DNA of 64,000 nt from Akkermansia muciniphila (GCA_943333275.1 CALQSQ010000006.1:1-64000), one strand, 5' to 3'; positions 18,205 to 29,773 are shown, counted from the stretch's first letter. Notes: a model not told the origin generated them from the sequence alone. Translations and numbers: made by a program.

Positions 18205-20208
18205 TCACTCCTCCATCAACGCCGCCCGCATCCGTTCGAAGGCGGCGTCGGCTTCGTCTTCATCCAGCGGGCGGCTTTGGATTTCGGTGTAGGTGAGCCA
18301 TTCGACGTAGCGTTCGTCGAGTTCCTTGATGAAGCTGCTGGGATTGCAGGGGACTTTATCGCCCCATTTGGTGCGGGTGAGGCAGTAGGTGAGCGTGAGC
18401 TGGAGTTGGGCGCGGGTCATGCCCACATAGAGCAGACGGCGTTCTTCATCGCGGCTGTTTTCCTCGATGCTGCGGCGGTGCGGGAGGATGCCTTCCTCCA
18501 GGCCCGGCAGATAGACGATGGGGAATTCCAGGCCCTTGGCCGCATGCATGGTGATGAGGCTCACGCCCTTCTTGCGCTCGAGTTGTTCCTGCCCGCTTTC
18601 GCTGCGCGCGTCTTCATCGAGCGACATGCTGCCGAGGAATTCGCTCAGGTCATCCACGCCGCGCACCATGCGTTCGCGGATGGAGGAAATGACTTCGCGC
18701 ACGCCCGCCTCGCGGTTGGTGGCTTCCTCGGGCTCCTTGCAGGTGCGGCGGAGGTAGGCGAGGTAGTCGGTCTCGACCAGCAGGCCTTCGATGATTTCCC
18801 AGACGGGGGTTTTCCCCTCCTTTAAGGTCTCGCGATAGCGCTCGATCATTTCCAGAAACCGTTCCACGGACTGTTGGGCCTTGTTGGAAAACAGACTGCG
18901 GAATTCGTAACTGTGCAGCGTCCTGAGCACGGGTTCCTTTTTCTCCCTGCTTTCGGCGGTGGCTTGTTCAATCAGGGTTTCGCCAATGCCGCGCGGCGGA
19001 TTGTTGACGATGCGCAGCAGGTTCACATCGTCGTCTGGATTCGCCAGCACATGGAGATACCCCAGCAGATCCTTCACCTCACGCCGGTCAAAGAAACTCT
19101 GTCCACCCACCACGCGGTAGGGGATTTTCCATTGCCGCAAGGCCTCTTCGAAGGGGCGGGTTTGACTGTTGGTGCGAAAGAGGATCGCAAAATCATCAAA
19201 CGAACGGGAGTCGACCATCTGGCGTTCGCGGATTTCATCGATCACCAGCTCCGCCTCCTCCTGATCGCCGGGCATGGAGATGAGACGGACCTTGTCGCCC
19301 AGGTCCTTGCTGCTCCAGAGCTTCTTCGGGTGGCGGTTGCGGTTGTGCTTAATGAGTTCGTTGGAGGCGTTGAGGATGGTGTTGGTGGAACGGTAATTTT
19401 CCTCCAGGGTGACGATCTTGGGCTTTGGAAAGAAGCGGCCGAAATTCAGGATGTTTTCAATTTCCGCGCCGCGCCAGCCATAGATGCTCTGGTCGTCATC
19501 GCCGACGACGCAGATGTTGTGATGCGGGCCAAGGAAATATTTCAGCAACTCCATCTGCAGCGCATTGGTGTCCTGAAATTCGTCCACCATCACATAGCGG
19601 AAACGGCTTTTCCATCGCTCACAAACGTCGGGGTTCTTGCGCAGAATCTGACAGGCCAGCACCAGCAGGTCATCGAAATCCACCGCGTTGAGAAGCTTCA
19701 ACTGCCGGGCGTATTCACTCATGACGGCCACGACGAGCGAATCCTCCGTGCCGGCCGGGATGCCCTTGTTGCGCTGGCGGCTCCAGAGGCCGATGGCCTC
19801 CTCAGGCTTTAGTTTTTCATCGCGTCCCGCCATTTTGGTAATGAGCTTTTTAACCAGCCCGACCTGGTCACTGCCCGTGTAAATCGTAAAATTTTTCTTA
19901 TAGCCAATCCGCTCGATGTCCGCGCGCAGCACCTTCACGCAGAGGCTGTGAAACGTGCTGATCATCAGCTTGGATTTTGTCCCTTTGGGGGTGCTCTCGG
20001 CCACCCGCTCGCGCATTTCATTGGCCGCTTTGTTGGTAAAGGTCACCGCCAGAATAGCGTGGGGTGGCACTCCCTGATCCAGCAGATGGCAGATGCGAGT
20101 TGTGACCGTGCGCGTCTTGCCCGTGCCGGCTCCGGCAAGGATGAGGACGGGACCTTCGGTCGTTCGGGCGGCAGTTTGTTGGGCGGGGTTGAGGTCGGAA
20201 ATTCGCAT
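18205..20208 (-). CDS. UvrD/PcrA/Rep-type DNA helicase
   Basis: A 667-residue superfamily 1A 3'-5' helicase acting in repair or replication restart. Motifs: Q-motif L-N-P-A-Q at 6-10, Walker A G-A-G-T-G-K-T at 26-32, motif II V-D-E-F-Q-D, motif III G-D-D-D-Q-S-I-Y-G-W-R-G, motif V H-A-A-K-G-L-E-F and motif VI Y-V-G-M-T-R-A. Length matches Rep or PcrA and the fold seems complete. The frame is open to 20382, but that extension runs antisense through the cobalamin riboswitch, so the family-typical Met at 20208 was chosen; Met 20235 is an alternative. The 3' end lies 12 bases from the convergent Uma2 gene. Confidence 0.93.
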   Translation of the reverse strand: MRISDLNPAQQTAARTTEGPVLILAGAGTGKTRTVTTRICHLLDQGVPPHAILAVTFTNKAANEMRERVAESTPKGTKSKLMISTFHSLCVKVLRADIERIGYKKNFTIYTGSDQVGLVKKLITKMAGRDEKLKPEEAIGLWSRQRNKGIPAGTEDSLVVAVMSEYARQLKLLNAVDFDDLLVLACQILRKNPDVCERWKSRFRYVMVDEFQDTNALQMELLKYFLGPHHNICVVGDDDQSIYGWRGAEIENILNFGRFFPKPKIVTLEENYRSTNTILNASNELIKHNRNRHPKKLWSSKDLGDKVRLISMPGDQEEAELVIDEIRERQMVDSRSFDDFAILFRTNSQTRPFEEALRQWKIPYRVVGGQSFFDRREVKDLLGYLHVLANPDDDVNLLRIVNNPPRGIGETLIEQATAESREKKEPVLRTLHSYEFRSLFSNKAQQSVERFLEMIERYRETLKEGKTPVWEIIEGLLVETDYLAYLRRTCKEPEEATNREAGVREVISSIRERMVRGVDDLSEFLGSMSLDEDARSESGQEQLERKKGVSLITMHAAKGLEFPIVYLPGLEEGILPHRRSIEENSRDEERRLLYVGMTRAQLQLTLTYCLTRTKWGDKVPCNPSSFIKELDERYVEWLTYTEIQSRPLDEDEADAAFERMRAALMEE

Positions 20209-20289
20209 TGGTCGGGCGGAGGAACGTATTTCCATGCAGCGGAAATTTTCATCGCGCAACCGCCATCCAAATTTCTCTTGCGCTTGCAG

Positions 20290-20456
20290 GCATCGACCTG
20301 ACGGTGCGCCAAGCCTTCGTGCATGGAATCCGGTGAGAACCCGGAACAGTGTGCGCTGCTGTAACTGGTTACAATGCCCCATGAAGTCAATCCGGCCCTT
20401 AACAGGTGGGGTGAAGACGGGGCGGAGGTCTGAAGCCAGGAGTCAGAATACTTCAC
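20290..20456 (+). promoter_or_regulatory. Cobalamin (adenosylcobalamin-type) riboswitch
   Basis: Conserved blocks occur in the right order: G-G-A-A-T-C-C-G-G-T-G at 20325-20335, the pairing C-C-G-G-A-A-C-A-G at 20341-20349, C-T-G-C-T-G-T-A-A-C-T-G-G at 20356-20368, and the B12 box G-A-A-G-C-C-A-G-G-A-G-T-C-A at 20432-20445. It reads toward the surface-protein operon that starts at 20534. A 9-bp imperfect stem at 20474-20501 without a T-run follows and may belong to the expression platform; a start-site G-G-A-A-A-G lies at 20523-20528. Expected effect: expression is switched off when cobalamin is plentiful. Outer limits are approximate. Confidence 0.9.
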
Positions 20457-20533
20457 GGTGGCCCCATTCACATCCCATCCGGCGCGCAAGCTCCGGGCGG
20501 GAAATCCCTGCGAACACACAACGGAAAGAAATC

Positions 20534-21214
20534 ATGAAAAACAGAAACTCACGCGTCTTTGGGTGCGGCGGGATGGCGCTGGCATTGCTACTCAGCGCTT
20601 CCGCCCAGGCGGCCATCACGATGACGGATATTCAAATCTGGGCTGGCTCCGGTCCCAACCGGGCCGCGCTGGTCATCGATTGGTCTGACGGCGGCCCGGC
20701 TCTCGTCTGGGGTTTTCGCTGGTCCAATGGCGCAACACCGAATGGCACGGACATGCTGATGGCGGTGATTGGTGCCGATGCGCGGCTGCGCGTTCCGGGC
20801 CTCAATCCCAGCACGAATTTCATCAACACGATTGAATTCGACGCAGACGGAAACGGAATTTTTGAGCGATCCCAATCAACTTCTGCGGGGCCGTATTGGG
20901 GCTACGTCGTGAACAACGACGTCTATTATGATCCGGTGGATTTTCATCTGAACTCCCACATTGTGTCGCCGAATCTGACGGTGGTTCCCAATGGTAATCC
21001 GTTCGACGGGGGAGCGTGGGTGGATTCCAGCACGGGGATTTTTGACAGACCCCTGGCGAATGGTTCATGGGATGGATTTGCCTACGGCGAATTTAATCTC
21101 TCCACGTTCACAGGCCCCTCGCCGGCTTCGCCGATTCCCGCCCTTCCCGTGCCGGAGCCCGGGATGCTATGGGGCGTGGGTCTGGTGCTGCTGGCATTTT
21201 ATACCCGCAGATGA
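20534..21214 (+). CDS. PEP-CTERM surface protein, first gene of riboswitch operon
   Basis: A 226-residue exported protein with a signal peptide (about 1-27) and a C-terminal PEP-CTERM tripartite signal: V-P-E-P at 206-209, a hydrophobic helix and a final T-R-R. This marks it for exosortase processing and anchoring. The body begins with I-Q-I-W-A-G-S-G and contains [10 protein letters not shown] and W-G-F-R-W-S-N-G segments, then a beta-rich region with D-A-D-G-N-G. I do not know a named family for it. It is the first gene after the cobalamin riboswitch and its stop overlaps the next start in an ATGA. A role in cobalamin capture at the surface is inferred only from the riboswitch. Confidence 0.82.
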
Positions 21215-23262
21215 AATTTCCATTCGCCATCGCCTGCATCTGGCTCGCAGCCTGTGGCCTTGCGTGCGCGGGACCGTATGCCCCGGCGGCCGGGCAGGTG
21301 GGCACGACCGCCCTCCTTCGCACGGCACCCCAGATTGTGGCATGGGCGGACCGCGTGATTTCCTATCAGGTGGGCACCGATTGTCTGCCGCAGTGGCAGG
21401 ACACGTCAAAAGCGCTGGGGCCGGCGACATCCGATCCCGCGCATGTCACTTGCCTGGGAGAGGGAGGCACCATCACCCTGGGCTTTCCAGGGTTCATCAA
21501 GAATGGTCCGGGGGCGGATTTTGTGATCTTTGAAAATGCGCTCGCCGATACTTTTATTGAATGCGCTTTCGTCGAGGTCTCGCGCGATGGGGTGAACTAC
21601 GTGCGATTTCCGAACCATTCGCTGACTCCCTCCGCAGTGAATTCGTTCGGCTCCCTTGACCCGACGAACCTCGTCGGGCTGGGCTGCAAATATCGCCAAC
21701 CCTACGGGGAGCCTTATGACCTGGCGGACGTTGGTCTGAGCGATGCGGCCTACGTGCGTCTGGTGGATGTGATAGGCGATGGTTCGGCGCACGACAGCGA
21801 TGGTCACAGCATCTATGATCCCTATCCCAACGCGCAGACCGCCGGTTTTGATCTGGATGCCATCGGCGTCATCAATCGTTCCACCTGGCAGACGATAACC
21901 GTGGGCACCTTTGCGGTGGATCTCATCAATGCCACGGCGCTGGCGCATTTGCCCGACGGGCGATTTCTGCTGGGATTCCAGGGGCAAATCAGCGCGCAAA
22001 ATTCCTGGTCCCAGCCTGGGAGAACGAATCTGAATTTAAATGGCGTGGAGCCCGATCCCAGTTTCATCGCCGTGCGGAATGCCACGTCCGCGCTGGTGGG
22101 TGCGGGGGGAGGTTTTGGATTGAACACAGGCGTGCATGCATTGAATCCGACTGGTTCGTTGCAGGCGGCGCCACTGGCCACATTACAAAATTTCGCCTGT
22201 GCTTACTGGCATTCGCCCACCACGAGCCGCGAGGGCTGGCTGATTGGAGGCACCAACGGTCCGACTGGGAAACATGCGGTGAGTTTTGTTTCGCTGGATG
22301 GTAGCAAGACCGGCCTGGTGACTCAGGAGTTGTGCACGTATAGCGCGGGCCTGGCGGTGGATGCAGGGGGCAATGTGTTCGTGACTCTCTACGAACTCCC
22401 CGGCAGTCCCCTTGAATTCGATGCGGAGCGAGTTTTAAAATTCTCCGCCGTGCAGGTGGAATCTGCCATTGCGGCTATCGTTTCAGGTTTATCCGCTCCC
22501 GTTGCCAAAAATTCGGCGGCATCTCTTTTCAAATTCGACAGCGCCAGCTCCCTTGCGGTGGACCAACGCGGTCGGCTCTGGGCCAGCGGACCCAAGCACA
22601 GTCGCCTGCAAGTTTACGATCCTGCCAATGGAGCCTGGCAGCGGGTGGTGCCGGACCACGCCCCCATCATCGGCGCGACGGATGTGGTTTATCAGGTGGC
22701 GACTTTTTCCAGAAATGGAGAGAATTACGTTTCCTATCTGGCGCAGGAGGAAGCGGGCACGCCGGACACGTCCGTCCTTTATGGGATCGCTCCGCTGAGT
22801 GCCGTCACCGTGACGGAAACTCTGGCGTCGTGGCAGGCCTTTCATTTTGGCTCCCTGCCGCCAGCCACCGAATCCGCAGTGTGGGGGGCGCTGGCGGATC
22901 CGGATCGTGACGGCCGCAGCAATCTGCTTGAATACGCACTGCATACCTCGCCGTTGATCGCTGAAACGGCACCGATGTCCGTGAGTCTCACCGCGTCGCG
23001 ACTTACGCTCGCCTTTCCACGCGATCCCCTGCGCACCGACCTTCGCTACACGGTGGAGGGTGCGGATGCCTTGAGTGGACCATGGACGGAGTTGGCGGCA
23101 AGCGAGGTTGGCGGCCCTACGAAAGCCATTTCCACACCGCCCCCGACCATCACGGAAACGCCCGCTGCCGGACTGATTCAAGTAAGTGTGCGCGATGTTT
23201 TCACCACCACGAGCCGAACGAAAAGATTTCTCCGGCTGCGCATCACCCAACCTTTCCCATGA
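21211..23262 (+). CDS. Secreted propeller-like surface protein under B12 riboswitch
   Basis: A 683-residue exported protein; an L-A-A-C at 12-15 could be a lipobox, otherwise cleavage is near A-C-A-G. Residues about 25-225 form a domain with [24 protein letters not shown] and G-F-D-L-D-A-I-G. About 235-540 looks like a beta-propeller, with repeated blades such as [13 protein letters not shown] and [13 protein letters not shown]. Then comes [15 protein letters not shown] and a C-terminal beta domain ending R-F-L-R-L-R-I. It overlaps both neighbours by ATGA. In Bacteroides the cobalamin-capturing BtuG is a surface propeller; equivalence here is a hypothesis. Confidence 0.8.
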
Positions 23263-25409
23263 AAAATCGCCGCCGATCCCGCTGGCTGCCTTGGTTGATT
23301 TGCCTGGGCTGCGTGACGATGGGTGGGGTTGGAATATTTACAAATATGGGCGCGCCATTGCGGCAATTCGCCGCCGATTTGTTCAGCGGATTTGATTCCG
23401 ATGAACAGGCATCCTCGGAATCGATTTCTGGAAATACAATTCCGGGGTCTGATGCCGCTGCGACGGATGGGAGGTTGGAGAAATCGCAGACTCAAGAGGA
23501 GCAGTTCGATCCTCATGCGCTGCCAAGGGGATTGAGTTCCATCGATGGCGAGGCGGGCGAGGGGCTGCAACGTGCGGTGAAAAAGAATGGCGTCTGGTTT
23601 CCGGTTTATTCCCAGACTGCCCAATCATCCCAGGGCAGGCCGACCCTGAATATTCTGCCGCTGGCCATTGCCTCCGGTCCGGCACCGCAGGGAATGGTGA
23701 ACGAGGCTTACGCTTATCAATCCGAGGCCATCGGCGGCACTCCGCCCTATCGTTGGGAGGCGACGATGAATCCAGCCGCCGCTGGTTTTACCTTCGAAGC
23801 CACCAGCGGAAAACTCAATGGCATCAGCGCAGAACCAATCACGACGGTGCTCGCACTTTCCGTCACGGATGCAGATGGGGCGAAAAATTCCGTACAAATG
23901 CCGCTGGTGATTCGTCCGGCCAAGGCGCTGACGATGCTGACGGAATCCCTGCCGGTGCAGGAGCCGGAGGCCTCTTTGATGCTGGCGATGGAAGCGGAGG
24001 GTGGCGTTGTGCCGTATCGTTGGAGCAGTTCGGGAGTTTTGCCGCAAGGCCTGCAACTGGAGGCTGACGGGAAGTTGGTTGGGACGACGTCGGAAGCCGG
24101 AGACTTTCCACTCACCATCACGGTGACGGACCAGCAGAACGTGCGGGTGGGTCGGGAAATGGTTTTGAAAGTGCAATATTCGCTGGAGATCCTCACGGAT
24201 GCCGCGCTGCCAAGTGTCGCGCCGGGGGAGGCTTACGAGACAGTGTTTGAAGCCTCCGGTGGCATGGAGCCATACACCTGGGAAATCACGCAGGGCGCGC
24301 TGCCACAGGGTTCCGGACAGCTGGGAGCGGATGGAATTTTGAGTGGCGTCGCTGGCGGCGTGGAGGAACTCGCCACCTTTACGCTCATGGTGCGCGATGC
24401 CGAGGAAGCGACGTTTCAGAAAACATTCCGCCTCGCGGTCAGCGATCTCCTCACCGCGATTCCCAGCGCACGCAAGGTTGGACTGGCCTGGTCGCCAGCA
24501 GCCGTGCGATCCCTGATGCGCGGTGCCGCGGAGCGTTTTGTGGTGCGGCGTGATGAGGCGGTGATTTATGAGGGGTCGGGCAGCAATTTTGTCGATCATC
24601 AGGTTCCCACTGGAGCCTCGCCGTTGTATGAACTTTCGGTCGTGATGGAGGATGGAAATCTACAACCCATCGCTTCCAAGCGTGTGAATGTGCTGCCAAT
24701 GTCCTTGCAGCGTGGAGAGGCCGGAGTGCGCGGTGATCCTTATGTGGACGTGGTTACAGCCTATCGTCCGCTTTCTGCAAAGGCCTATGGCGCCAGCAAA
24801 ATTTCCACCAACGTCACCGGGCCTCCGGATGGCCGGAGCACATTTTCGCCAGCCACGAAAGCCACGGAGGTGGCGTCGCTTGGTGCCACGATTGGCGGCG
24901 GCGGTTTCATTGAACTGGCTTTCACGGACAACATTGTGGAGCTGGGCGGCGGTGAGGATCTGACGGTGTTTGAAAATGTTTTCTTCATTGGTGGTGACCC
25001 CAATCAACGATTCATGGAGGCCGCCATTGTCAGTGTGGCGCTGTTTCCAGGCGAGTGGCATCGGATTCCCTGCGATGTCCTGCCTCCGGCTGACGGATCG
25101 CCTGTGAACACGCGCAATCCCTTTTATTACGCCCGTGGCATCGCGGGCCGCAATGCCACAACCGGCGAGGACCCCACGGATCCGAATCGCAGCGGCGGAG
25201 ACAGTTTCAATCTGGAGGGGGCGCTGGCGGGCACCGGGCTCACGTGGATTCGTTTTGTGCGCATTCAATCCACTGGCGATGCCTGGCTGCAGGATGATGC
25301 CGGGGGCGATTTGATCCGGCACGAAAATGATCCTGCTTTCCAACCTCTTTCCGGCACGGGCAGTTCCGGCTTTGACCTCGATGCCGTGTGCGCGACTCGC
25401 GAGAGGTGA
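23259..25409 (+). CDS. Membrane-anchored Ig-repeat surface protein under B12 riboswitch
   Basis: A 716-residue protein with a basic N-terminus and a single hydrophobic segment (about 9-27) acting as anchor or uncleaved signal. After an acidic linker come three or more Ig-like putative-surface repeats (about 130-400) with G-G-x-x-P-Y-x-W and L-P-Q-G-L-x-L-x-x-D-G-x-L-x-G motifs. The C-terminal domain (about 490-716) has [24 protein letters not shown] and G-F-D-L-D-A-V, the same pattern as the first domain of the preceding protein. The start lies inside the preceding stop (ATGA). The last gene of the operon, it ends directly against the convergent glycosyltransferase. Confidence 0.82.
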
Positions 25410-26567
25410 TCAGCGGACCGCAAGGGCGCAGGACTCTTCGTAGAACGATTCAAGAACTGCCGTCTGTCTCACGCGCTCAAATTTTTTCATGACGGTGGCG
25501 CTGGCGGCCCGGGCCATGGATTCGTAGAGCCGGGGTTGCTGCATGATCTCCAGGGCACCCTGGGCCAGCGATGCGGCATCGCCCTCCGCCACAAGCCATC
25601 CACTCTCGCCGTGCGTCACGGCTTCGGGGATGCCGCCGTGGAGACTCGCCAGCACCGGGAGTCCGCTGGCCATGGCTTCCAGCATGGAATTGGGAACGCC
25701 CTCGCGATTTCCATCTGCGGGAGTTTCGCTTGGATGCAGAAACAGGTGCGCCTGATAGGTGAGTTTGCGAAGATCGGCCTGGGACAGGAATCCCGGGAAA
25801 TGCACGCGGTCCTTCAGCCCCCATTGGGCCACGAGCGACTCCAGTTCCTCCCGCATGGGTCCGTCGCCGGCGAGCGTCAGTCGGGCTTGGGGAAATTTTT
25901 CCGCCACCATGCGAAAGGCCGCGAGCGTGGTGCGCAGGCCTTTTTTGGGAACCAACCGGCATGCCTGCATCCAGTGCCACGCCCCGTCTTCCGGCCACGG
26001 ACGCAGTTGCAACGGCCATTCGTTCAGGGGGATGCCGGTGCGTTGCAGTCGCAACTTCTCCGGCGGGCAGCCCAACTTCCTAAGCCCCTCCATGAGCGAC
26101 TCCGAGCGCGCCAGAATCAATGTGCTGCGGCGAAAGATCTCCTCCAACGCAGCACGTGCCGCAGGCTTTTCCGCATCCACCCCAACATCCGCGCCATGAA
26201 AGGAAACCACCACGGGCTTGGGGCAGGCCTGGATAAAAGGCAGCAACTGGATGGCGATGTGGCCGAAATAAATATGCACGACTTCCGAATCGTGACGATA
26301 GACCTCCTTCAATAGTTCAATCACCCGGCCGGTGGAAATCGTCAGCGGCGCGCGGCGCACATGTTTTGCCCATTGGCGACGAAGCCAGCGCCAGGGAGGC
26401 TTGGGGAGGACGGTGGTGCTTTTATCCGAAAAGGGAAAGGTCGCGGCGTTCTCGCGGTTCTGGCAGATGACGAAGGGCTTCCAGTCTTTCAACGATACGA
26501 TCTGCCGATACACATGCTGCATGTCCGGCTTGAGAAAATCATGGCAATAACAGGCTACGGATCTCAT
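25410..26567 (-). CDS. GT4-family glycosyltransferase
   Basis: A 385-residue GT-B glycosyltransferase. The N-terminal half has V-V-V-S-F-H-G-A-D-V, typical of the acceptor domain. The C-terminal half has the nucleotide-sugar domain with A-C-R-L-V-P-K-K-G-L, L-A-G-D-G-P and the G-V-P-N-S-M-L-E-A-M-A-S-G-L-P-V block holding the E-x7-E pair. It would transfer a sugar in the cytoplasm to exopolysaccharide, lipopolysaccharide or a lipid; acceptor unknown. The frame is open to 26678, but Met 26567 lies 16 bases after the stop of the lactonase gene and gives the standard start. The two genes are probably one transcript. Confidence 0.9.
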   Translation of the reverse strand: MRSVACYCHDFLKPDMQHVYRQIVSLKDWKPFVICQNRENAATFPFSDKSTTVLPKPPWRWLRRQWAKHVRRAPLTISTGRVIELLKEVYRHDSEVVHIYFGHIAIQLLPFIQACPKPVVVSFHGADVGVDAEKPAARAALEEIFRRSTLILARSESLMEGLRKLGCPPEKLRLQRTGIPLNEWPLQLRPWPEDGAWHWMQACRLVPKKGLRTTLAAFRMVAEKFPQARLTLAGDGPMREELESLVAQWGLKDRVHFPGFLSQADLRKLTYQAHLFLHPSETPADGNREGVPNSMLEAMASGLPVLASLHGGIPEAVTHGESGWLVAEGDAASLAQGALEIMQQPRLYESMARAASATVMKKFERVRQTAVLESFYEESCALAVR

Positions 26568-26583
26568 CGCAATCGGGCGGTCC

Positions 26584-27696
26584 TCAGGGAATGTGGAGGA
26601 AGGCGATGCACACCGGCATGCCGACGGCGGTGGTTTCGCCATGTAATGTGAGTTTTCCGGAAACCGGGTCCACCGCAAACGTCACCACCTTGTTCTCATC
26701 CTGCACGCCGGCAATCATCCACTTGCCGGACGGATGAACGGCGAAGCCACGCGGAACGGGTCCGGTAGTGCTGGTGGTGTCCTCGAATTTCATCTTTCCG
26801 TCCTTGTCCACAGAGTAGCGCACAATGCTGTTGTCGCCGCGGTTGGAGCCGTAGAGCACGTGTCCATTCGGATGAAAGGCAATTTCCGCCGTGCTATTGC
26901 CGGGCACGGGCTTGGGCGTGGTGGGCAGGTCCTGGAACTGCGTGAGAGTCCCAGCCTTGGCATTCCAAGTGAGCGCGGTGACCGAACAGGCCATTTCGTT
27001 GATGACGTAAAATTTCGATCCATCCGGACTGAATGTTCCATGGCGCGGCCCGGATCCCGGGGCCATGATTCCGGCCGGGGGATCATTTTTCGTGAGCAGG
27101 CCCTTGGCGGAATTGAAATGATAAACAACCACGCGATCCATTCCAAGATCGGCGACGAGGGCGAATTTTTCATCGGCACTCAGATACGCCCCATGCGCGT
27201 GCGGGGCTTCCTGGCGTTCCTTGTTGGGCCCCGTGCCCGTATGTTGGTGAAAGGAACTCGCCGGGGCCAGACTGCCATCGTCCCTGATGGGCAGGCAGAC
27301 CACGCTGCCGCTGCCGTAGTTCGAGACGAGCACATTCTTGCGTCCCTTGTCCACGATGATGTGGCACGGGCCGTCGCCCCTGGCGCTCTCCTTATTGAGG
27401 AACGTGAGCTTGCCGGTGGTGCGGTCGATGCGATAGGCGGCCACGGCTCCGGGACTGTTCTCATAGATGGCGTAAAGAAAATCCCCCTTGGCATCGACGG
27501 CAAGAAACGACGGATTGGGAGCGGCGGCGGCGACTCCCAAATTTTCGAGCTTGCCAGTGGCCTCGTCCATTTTCAGCAGGGAAATGCCACCATCCGGTCC
27601 CTTGGTGTAGGAGCCGACATAAACGTAGCACGTGGACGCAAGCGCGGTGGCGCCGAGGCCGGCGGTGACGAAAAGCGAGAGGAGAGTGGATTTCAT
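26584..27696 (-). CDS. Exported lactonase, YbhE/6-phosphogluconolactonase-like propeller
   Basis: A 370-residue seven-bladed beta-propeller of the lactonase family. A signal peptide (about 1-20) exports it, unlike cytoplasmic 6-phosphogluconolactonase. Family features: Y-V-G-S-Y-T at the first blade, A-x-N-P-S-F-L-A, C-H-I-I-V, P-H-A-H-G-A-Y near the middle with conserved His residues, G-S-G-P-R-H-G-T-F-S-P-D-G, and R-G-F-A-V-H-P-S-G-K-W near the end. Because it is exported the substrate is probably a sugar lactone in the periplasm, not 6-phosphogluconolactone; that is inference. Met 27696 was preferred to the upstream open frame for the signal peptide. It is divergent from the M13 peptidase with a 70-base shared promoter region. 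Confidence 0.87.
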   Translation of the reverse strand: MKSTLLSLFVTAGLGATALASTCYVYVGSYTKGPDGGISLLKMDEATGKLENLGVAAAAPNPSFLAVDAKGDFLYAIYENSPGAVAAYRIDRTTGKLTFLNKESARGDGPCHIIVDKGRKNVLVSNYGSGSVVCLPIRDDGSLAPASSFHQHTGTGPNKERQEAPHAHGAYLSADEKFALVADLGMDRVVVYHFNSAKGLLTKNDPPAGIMAPGSGPRHGTFSPDGSKFYVINEMACSVTALTWNAKAGTLTQFQDLPTTPKPVPGNSTAEIAFHPNGHVLYGSNRGDNSIVRYSVDKDGKMKFEDTTSTTGPVPRGFAVHPSGKWMIAGVQDENKVVTFAVDPVSGKLTLHGETTAVGMPVCIAFLHIP

Positions 27697-27766
27697 ATGG
27701 AGAGTTTGGCCACCATCGGTAAGGGTGCCGGGCCACCGCGTCAATTCCCCACTTTCCCAGCCCACC

Positions 27767-29773
27767 ATGCGCCTCGTCACCCTGCTATCGTTTTGCTTCC
27801 TGCTCTCCGTCTCCCGCGCGGAATTGCCGGAATTTCGATTCTCGCTGGATCACATGGATCTCAAGGTGGCGCCGGAGGAGGATTTCTTTCGTTATGCCTG
27901 CGGCACCTGGTTGAAACAAAACAAGATTCCGTCGGATCGGGCATCGTGGGGACCGACGGAGTATCTCATGGAGAGAAATGCGGCGCAACTGAGGGCGATT
28001 TGTGATGCAGTGGCGGCGGGCTCCGGTGGCGGGCCGGAGGCGTTGGTGGGGCCGTTTTTTGCGGCGGCGATGAACGAGACGAAAATGAATGAACTCGGCT
28101 GGACTCCCGTGGCGGGGGATCTGGCAAGCATCGAAGCCATCACAGATAAATCCTCCCTCGCCGAACTCATGGGCGCCTTCCAATTCCACGGCGACAGCAC
28201 GCTCTTCGGCTGGTATGTCGATGCCGATGCCCGTGAGAGCGACCGCTACGCCTTCCACATTACGCAGGGCGGGCTGTCCCTGCCGGATCGCGATTATTAT
28301 CTTCACGCCGACTTCGCAAAAGTCCTCTCCGCCTACACCTCCCATGTGGAGAAAATCTTCACCCTCGCAGGCGATGATCCCCCCGCCGCCCAAGCCCATG
28401 CCGCCACCATCGTGCGCCTGGAGACCGCCCTCGCCAAAGTTTCCAAACCCGCCGAGGACCTCAACGATGCCGTGGAAAATTACCACAAGCTCACCGATGC
28501 GGAACTCACCGCCCTCGCCCCGGATTTCCCCTGGCCCTCCTTCTGGAAAGGCCTCACGTTCCACCCCACCACCCTCGTCCTCGGCCAGCCGGAGTTCCTC
28601 GCCGCCGCCGCCAAACTCTTCGCCGCAGAGTCCCTCGCCGACTGGAAGACCTACGTCCGCTGGAACATCCTCAGCAACGCCTCACCCTCCCTCCACCAAG
28701 CCGCCGCCGACGAAAATTTCGCCTTCTACGGCAAAGTCCTCGAAGGCCAGCAGGAACAAAGCCCCCGCTGGAAACGCGCCGTCAAGATCACCGATGCCTC
28801 GCTCGGCGATGCCCTCGGCCAGCTCTACGTCGCCAAGCATTTTCCCCCCGCTGCCAAGCAGTGCATGGAAACAATGGTCGCCAACCTCAAAGCCACCTAC
28901 GCCGACCACATCCGCCAGGCCACCTGGATGAGCCCCGCCACCCGCGACAAAGCCCTCCTCAAGCTCGACAAATTCCACGCCAAGCTCGGCTACCCCGATA
29001 AATGGAAAACCTACGACGGCCTCCAAATCCTCCCCGGCGACTACTACGGCAATCTCCAGCGCACCGCCCTCTGGCACTCCCAGTTCCAGCTCCGCCGCGT
29101 CGGCCAGCCCGTCGACCGCGACGAGTGGGCCATGACCGCCCCCACCGTCAACGCCTACTTCAACCAGAACAACAACGAGATCGTCTTCCCCGCCGGCATC
29201 CTCCAGCCACCCTTCTTCGACCTCACCCTCGACGACGCCATCAACTACGGCTCCACCGGCGCCGTCATCGGCCATGAAATGACCCACGGCTTCGACAGCG
29301 AAGGCCGCAAATTCAACGCCTCCGGCAACCTCGAAGACTGGTGGACCCCCGCCGACGCCGCCGAATTCAACCGCCGCGCCGACGTCCTCATCCAGGACTT
29401 CAACCGCCGCGAAGGCCTCCCGGGCATCAAAGTAAACGGCAAACTCACCCTCCCCGAAAACATCGCGGATCTCGGCGGCATCGTCCTCGCCTACGAAGCC
29501 CTCCAGCGCGCCCTCAAAGAAAACCCACCCCCCACCGCCACCATCGGCGGCTTCACCCCCCAGCAACGCTACTTCCTCAGCTACACCCAGAGCTGGATGC
29601 AACTCGCCCAGTCCGCCATCATCCGCAAACGCATGGCCAGCGACTCCCACGCCCCCGACCACCTCCGCGCCATCGCCCCCCTGCAAAACTTCCAACCCTG
29701 GTACGACGCCTTCCACATCCCCCCCAAAAGCAAAATGTACCTCCCCCCCGCCAAACGCGCCACCATCTGGTAG
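27767..29773 (+). CDS. M13-family zinc metallopeptidase (PepO/neprilysin-like)
   Basis: A 668-residue exported peptidase with a signal peptide at about 1-18. The zinc site is H-E-M-T-H at 503-507 with the third ligand in E-N-I-A-D-L-G-G (564-571). The substrate-binding N-A-Y-F motif and the N-terminal F-F-R-Y-A-C-G-T-W segment are both present, and length is typical. It would degrade small peptides in the periplasm or outside. Codon choice changes sharply at about 28140: the first 120 codons end in mixed bases with many G, the rest almost all in C. The upstream open frame to 27632 lacks signal-peptide character, so Met 27767 was chosen. Confidence 0.94.
   Translation: MRLVTLLSFCFLLSVSRAELPEFRFSLDHMDLKVAPEEDFFRYACGTWLKQNKIPSDRASWGPTEYLMERNAAQLRAICDAVAAGSGGGPEALVGPFFAAAMNETKMNELGWTPVAGDLASIEAITDKSSLAELMGAFQFHGDSTLFGWYVDADARESDRYAFHITQGGLSLPDRDYYLHADFAKVLSAYTSHVEKIFTLAGDDPPAAQAHAATIVRLETALAKVSKPAEDLNDAVENYHKLTDAELTALAPDFPWPSFWKGLTFHPTTLVLGQPEFLAAAAKLFAAESLADWKTYVRWNILSNASPSLHQAAADENFAFYGKVLEGQQEQSPRWKRAVKITDASLGDALGQLYVAKHFPPAAKQCMETMVANLKATYADHIRQATWMSPATRDKALLKLDKFHAKLGYPDKWKTYDGLQILPGDYYGNLQRTALWHSQFQLRRVGQPVDRDEWAMTAPTVNAYFNQNNNEIVFPAGILQPPFFDLTLDDAINYGSTGAVIGHEMTHGFDSEGRKFNASGNLEDWWTPADAAEFNRRADVLIQDFNRREGLPGIKVNGKLTLPENIADLGGIVLAYEALQRALKENPPPTATIGGFTPQQRYFLSYTQSWMQLAQSAIIRKRMASDSHAPDHLRAIAPLQNFQPWYDAFHIPPKSKMYLPPAKRATIW

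Follow-up and report, generated by a model that had tools for sequence, protein, structure and literature searches.

The three-gene operon at positions 20534-25409 of a 64,000-nucleotide (nt) stretch assigned to Akkermansia muciniphila (CALQSQ010000006.1:1-64000; the window) stands behind a cobalamin riboswitch and probably encodes a B12-repressible surface and secreted system for the capture of cobamides, a reading to which we give a probability of roughly 0.78. Two of its three proteins carry domains that profile comparison relates to the B12-binding domain of Bacteroides BtuH, and relatives of genes 1 and 2 are linked in other genomes to riboswitches, TonB receptors, BtuG, BtuH, BtuF-like proteins and MetH. 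Together, the BtuH-homologous domains and the conserved linkage give the surface-capture reading strong genomic support. An earlier note on this DNA had proposed a verrucomicrobial surface system for cobalamin; judged from the sequences this remains the best reading, except that it is not restricted to Verrucomicrobiota, with relatives also in Planctomycetota, Armatimonadota, Bacteroidota and others. The accessory B12-capture proteins BtuG, BtuH, BtuJ and BtuK were worked out in gut Bacteroides, and DUF4465 is to our knowledge the one accessory family shown to reach beyond them. Surface cobamide capture is thus already known; what is new here is the BtuH branch and an unrecognised family, P1, represented by gene 1.

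The Rfam cobalamin model (RF00174) matches the plus strand over its full length (model positions 1-189) at 53.7 bits, well over the gathering threshold of 31.5 (E = 1.5e-10). Rfam finds nothing else within the window, and no second cobalamin riboswitch over the cut-off in the whole genome (G000; 5.79 Mb, 215 contigs, 94.9% complete). The riboswitch announced in the earlier note is therefore confirmed, although its start, given as 20290, was about 20 nt late. Between the end of the aptamer and the gene 1 start codon (ATG) lie 60 nt; no terminator-like site was found there, and the leader (20440-20545) does not fold better than its shuffles (z = -0.98). Three genes joined by two ATGA overlaps (21211-21214 between genes 1 and 2, 23259-23262 between genes 2 and 3) follow, as the note had described. 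On the opposite strand, the listed start of a UvrD/PcrA-type helicase reading frame (18205-20382, minus strand) intrudes into the riboswitch; the true start is probably further inside.

20271..20473, plus strand: cobalamin riboswitch aptamer (RF00174; Rfam)
20534..21214, plus strand: gene 1 (P1), first gene of the operon, 226-residue protein, predicted secreted, PEP-CTERM type (reading frame, translation)
20603..21148, plus strand: P1 domain, residues 24-205, unnamed family of B12 loci (alignment of 68 sequences, AlphaFold)
21146..21211, plus strand: PEP-CTERM sorting tail, gene 1 residues 205-226 (PF07589, TIGR02595)
21211..23262, plus strand: gene 2 (P2), 683-residue protein, predicted exported, BtuH-like domain and propeller-like region (reading frame, translation)
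21271..21918, plus strand: BtuH-like domain of gene 2 (P2N), residues 21-236 (hhalign, AlphaFold, Foldseek)
21907..22830, plus strand: propeller-like region of gene 2, about residues 233-540 (weak SGL/NHL, clearer in homologues)
23259..25409, plus strand: gene 3 (P3), 716 residues, N-terminal hydrophobic segment, immunoglobulin (Ig) repeats, C-terminal BtuH-like domain (reading frame, translation)
23634..24458, plus strand: Ig-type repeats of gene 3, about residues 126-400 (He_PIG)
24699..25406, plus strand: BtuH-like C-terminal domain of gene 3 (P3C), residues 481-716 (hhalign)

BtuH-like domains in genes 2 and 3

In gene 2 a signal peptide and P2N are followed by a propeller-like middle; the C-terminal part is widespread in the class. 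Gene 3 has the Ig repeats that the earlier note had seen, in three He_PIG stretches (E = 1.8e-16 for the protein). P2N is homologous to P3C, their profiles aligning at 100% probability in hhalign, and by the same type of comparison both are homologous to the B12-binding domain of BtuH. P3C matches the BtuH family at P = 5e-9 (probability 96%) and P2N at P = 1.5e-6 to 2.3e-6 (89-90%); decoys (unrelated, reversed and column-shuffled profiles) reach P = 0.017 or worse. FEN2, a domain of P1 loci described below, matches the same family at P = 3e-9. The reference family consisted of PKD-plus-270-residue proteins from Bacteroidota P1 loci, and its genuineness is seen in a Bacteroides salyersiae member (L152_020) that matches chain B of PDB entry 8blw (the BtuB1G1 complex) at E = 4e-77 and BtuH2 (7biz) at E = 4e-46. 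The aligned part is a conserved segment around G-G-x-I-x-V-x-F-D...D-F-x-V-F-x-N-x-F.

P2N was modelled with AlphaFold from an alignment free of BtuH sequences, and the model is a discoidin-like sandwich (predicted local distance difference test, pLDDT, 80). In a Foldseek search of the PDB with this model the BtuG1/BtuGH chain 8blw_B ranks third (E = 7e-4), amid CBM32 domains. Of the comparisons with BtuH that the earlier note had called for, that by profile points to homology for both genes. Both domains also weakly match the NCBIfam model LIC_13355 (NF033170; E = 1e-4 and 6e-4). This Leptospira lipoprotein family may be of BtuH type rather than an adhesin alone.

The resemblance to BtuH of Bacteroides thetaiotaomicron (BT_1956, BT_1488 and the C-terminal domain of BT_1490) takes in a shared domain of ~230-270 residues, a cobalamin riboswitch close upstream, an exported surface protein and, for P2N in other genomes, a place beside TonB receptors. 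It differs in that the sequence homology is only remote, the phylum is another one, and no btuB, btuG or btuF stands beside the window operon. BtuH2 consists of Ig/PKD repeats and then the B12-binding domain (PMC8941943), the same order as in gene 3. BT_1490 (BtuGH) joins a propeller to a BtuH domain (PMC12751083); gene 2 likewise has a BtuH-like domain next to a propeller-like region, but in reverse order, the domain being N-terminal, and with a propeller that is not demonstrably BtuG.

As to this propeller, the earlier description of gene 2 stands in part. Its own sequence gives weak SGL/NHL matches (E = 0.1-0.2), some homologues give clearer ones (SGL, SBBP, Reg_prop), and matches to designed Kelch proteins in the PDB (E = 0.013) reflect generic propeller similarity. 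Its identification as BtuG is unsupported, with E = 0.06 in the profile comparison and no DUF5074 match; the connection with Bacteroides that the note had sought in the BtuG propeller lies in BtuH instead. A 7-bladed lactonase-type propeller gene (26584-27780, minus strand) is found near the operon in the opposite orientation, with a glycosyltransferase gene (25410-26678, minus strand) in between.

In 14 loci from 13 Verrucomicrobiae genomes a P2N-type gene lies directly 3' of a TonB-dependent receptor gene, and at least 7 of these loci have a riboswitch. Pfam confirms as TonB receptors those that were checked; since the B12-receptor model matches them only weakly, it is their context that suggests the name BtuB. 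One locus from the same order as the window (L029) has a single riboswitch followed by P1, a TonB receptor and P2N. In other lineages (L076; similarly L075, L079, L088, L090) the receptor is absent, and the locus holds a riboswitch with genes for a propeller, P2N, a pseudopilin and a BtuF-like protein. Gene 2 has a full-length homologue of 39% identity in G184, and gene 3 has homologues in G139 and G171; a full P2 homologue accompanies a P3 homologue in L074, as a propeller protein does in L077 and L078.

The P1 family of gene 1

Gene 1 encodes a signal peptide (recognised by eye), a domain of 180 residues and a PEP-CTERM tail. The tail scores 17.4 bits with TIGR02595 (cut-off 16) and 20.3 with the Pfam model PF07589, narrowly below its cut-off of 20.7; a C-terminal PEP motif, a hydrophobic stretch and a basic end are all present, and the earlier assignment to PEP-CTERM proteins holds. 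No Pfam or NCBIfam family matched the 180-residue domain.

This domain defines a previously unrecognised family, met repeatedly and in many phyla together with cobalamin riboswitches and in btuB-btuG-btuH clusters. Relatives of gene 1 occur in 19 of 236 genomes of the class, with a riboswitch of the cobalamin class (RF00174 or AdoCbl-II) immediately upstream at 12 of 16 usable loci; the counts leave out a probably spurious match (L019, in G188) and a locus cut by a contig end (L018). A scan of 84,980 species genomes with a six-row alignment found 253 relatives, of which 80 were kept (an alignment of 15 rows was too diverse, and a single P1 sequence as query in the genome-contig scan gave no matches). 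They come from Verrucomicrobiota, Planctomycetota, Armatimonadota, Bacteroidota and Desulfosarcina-type bacteria, among others. Outside Bacteroidota, a same-strand cobalamin riboswitch stands in cis at 20 of the 21 loci tested, and at L149 besides, P1 being the first, second or third gene after it. Since a genome has one to a few such riboswitches, chance cannot explain this linkage. The survey of riboswitch linkage proposed in the earlier note thus had a positive outcome for genes 1 and 2.

About 40 loci of Bacteroidota type have btuB and/or btuG and 37 have a BtuH gene, with P1 usually last. Here the relation to BtuG is close: P1 is fused to a DUF5074 (BtuG) propeller and a type IX secretion system tail in L110 and L161 (examples checked with Pfam), and the P1 and DUF5074 proteins adjoin in L164 (Pfam). 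In Verrucomicrobiota and other groups the BtuH-like FEN2 domain comes after P1 or is part of the same protein, often with a pseudopilin gene next. BtuF-like genes also occur in L027 and L102, and metH lies within a few kb of P1 in L023, L031, L032, L033 and L040.

The pseudopilin-like genes, recognised by the prepilin N-methylation motif, follow P1 or a BtuH-like gene under the riboswitch in L024, L025, L030, L033, L035, L037, L096-L099 and others. Many such loci belong to Verrucomicrobiota, Planctomycetota and Armatimonadota, and they may point to a link between pilus-like structures and B12 uptake.

The AlphaFold model of the P1 domain, from the 68-sequence alignment, has a pLDDT of 82 and a predicted template modelling score of 0.81. 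Foldseek found no significant neighbour for it in the PDB. The first four ranks and several more of the 35 listed neighbours are chains of transcobalamin or intrinsic factor, each insignificant when taken singly (E = 1.5 or worse, template modelling score about 0.35); the others include ubiquitin-like beta-grasp folds. Transcobalamin itself has a C-terminal beta-grasp domain that belongs to the SLBB superfamily (PMC1796856). Compared with DUF4430 proteins, the P1 profile gives two co-linear local matches, singly insignificant (P = 0.05-0.08); a survey of the phylum yielded 2 DUF4430 members only, too few for a profile test. P1 differs from these carriers in having neither a match to them at the sequence level nor an alpha/alpha toroid partner. 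We regard the modelled likeness as a lead, short of demonstration. A match of the P1 profile to the rhodanese YnjE (E = 0.02) was gone with a larger alignment.

DUF4465 proteins, including BtuJ and members from Verrucomicrobiota and Planctomycetota, resemble gene 1 in being exported proteins of B12 loci, some with PEP-CTERM tails (PMC12751083, PMC13398666). An assignment of gene 1 to this family was rejected, there being no Pfam DUF4465 match in the three window proteins or in the 68 P1 members. We found no paper linking PEP-CTERM proteins to cobalamin riboswitches in the way seen here; the PEP-CTERM-tailed DUF4465 proteins are the known parallel.

B12 use and uptake in the genome

By its gene content, the genome appears to use B12 without sign of making it or of the usual outer-membrane importer. 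MetH is present (72% and 50% identity over two stretches). There are two matches to corrin-type methylases, both outside the window and read by length as siroheme type and RsmI; de novo corrin synthesis is therefore unlikely. The dependence on B12 may not be strict, as there is also a short Meth_synt_2 protein (a 419-residue frame, G000:C43:33312-34289), which is not a full-length MetE but possibly of core-MetE type.

Searches of the whole genome with PF07715 (TonB plug), PF00593 (TonB barrel) and PF01497 (BtuF) came back empty while control genomes were positive, and no relative of the verrucomicrobial TonB receptor was found. Neither the receptor nor the BtuF that mark a TonB-dependent Btu uptake system was thus detected in the assembly, and the statement of the earlier note that the window has no btuB, btuF or cob gene proved right (BtuD-type ATPases lay outside the search). 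Matches to FecCD, the BtuC-type permease family, are weak and partial (42, 29 and 20 bits); we read them as related ATP-binding cassette permeases and rejected them as BtuC. That no TonB-dependent receptor of any kind was detected in a 95%-complete Gram-negative genome is an observation in its own right.

Proposed working of the operon and its alternatives

In the scheme that we propose, low cellular cobalamin would relieve the riboswitch and the operon would be expressed. The three proteins would be exported, that of gene 1 being sorted to the envelope via the PEP-CTERM/exosortase route. Those of genes 2 and 3 would be located at the envelope, where the BtuH-like domains, and probably P1 too, would bind scarce extracellular cobamides and pass these to a route through the outer membrane that is encoded elsewhere than in the operon. 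This would be the mode of working of the Bacteroides accessory proteins BtuG, BtuH and BtuJ, here in a genome without a recognisable TonB receptor. A more specific version has P1 as a new cross-phylum cobamide-binding domain, distantly akin to the beta-domain of transcobalamin, which in this genome acquires B12 together with the two BtuH-like proteins by an outer-membrane route free of TonB receptors; we offer it tentatively, as somewhat likelier to be wrong than right.

Several points weigh against the capture reading. P1 has no match to any known B12-binding family in profile searches or the Pfam scan, the gene 2 propeller is not detectably BtuG, and the hhalign matches to BtuH span about 70-130 columns, less than the whole domain. 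The relatives closest in architecture, L074 and L077, have no riboswitch over the threshold, and L078 has only a sub-threshold cobalamin match of 25.1 bits just upstream. The assembly is incomplete, and the 5% that it lacks might contain an importer. Finally, BtuL of B. thetaiotaomicron is a B12-regulated lipoprotein of a B12 locus that binds no B12 (PMC12751083), and by analogy membership of such a locus need not mean B12 binding.

The BtuL precedent bears most directly on gene 1. Only the two BtuH-like domains might bind cobamides, with gene 1 as a structural or assembly partner (a surface scaffold, or a link to vesicles or exopolysaccharide). The PEP-CTERM tail would suit such a role, as would the pseudopilin gene that follows P1 in many loci and could make P1 part of an envelope structure. 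We consider this unlikely on balance but deserving of serious attention, given that no other non-transporter protein is as constant as P1 in the loci found outside Bacteroidota, that within Bacteroidota it occurs in fusion with the BtuG propeller, and that the solved folds nearest to its model are B12 carriers.

Two further alternatives deny the operon a part in uptake. The riboswitch may mainly belong to an importer lost from the genome or the assembly, the three genes being a remnant; no TonB receptor, BtuF or clear BtuC was found in the assembly, and a genome of the same order (G180) has the series riboswitch-P1-TonB receptor-P2N. Yet the three overlapping frames are intact, the receptor is absent from the locus in other lineages too (L075, L076, L079, L088, L090, L096-L102), and the P2-P3 pair recurs in G184 and the propeller-P3 pair in G139 and G171, which makes a remnant improbable. 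He_PIG repeats and PEP-CTERM tails are frequent in surface adhesins, and both occur here, in genes 3 and 1; the discoidin-like fold of P2N, which on this view would bind glycans, has many CBM32/F5-8C domains next to it in the Foldseek ranking. The proteins could thus serve carbohydrate binding or adhesion and merely respond to B12 status. The profile homology of P2N and P3C is to BtuH, however, and many genomes have P2N-type genes next to TonB receptor genes and controlled by cobalamin riboswitches, so that we hold this to be very improbable.

With these domains the BtuH superfamily now reaches into Verrucomicrobiota and into related loci elsewhere among the phyla. The unannotated P1 family includes members from cultured Flavobacterium and Chryseobacterium, which are open to direct testing; the Flavobacterium gene lies at 8869-11148 of L110. 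The operon also raises the question of how cobalamin passes the outer membrane in a B12-using Gram-negative bacterium without detectable TonB receptors.

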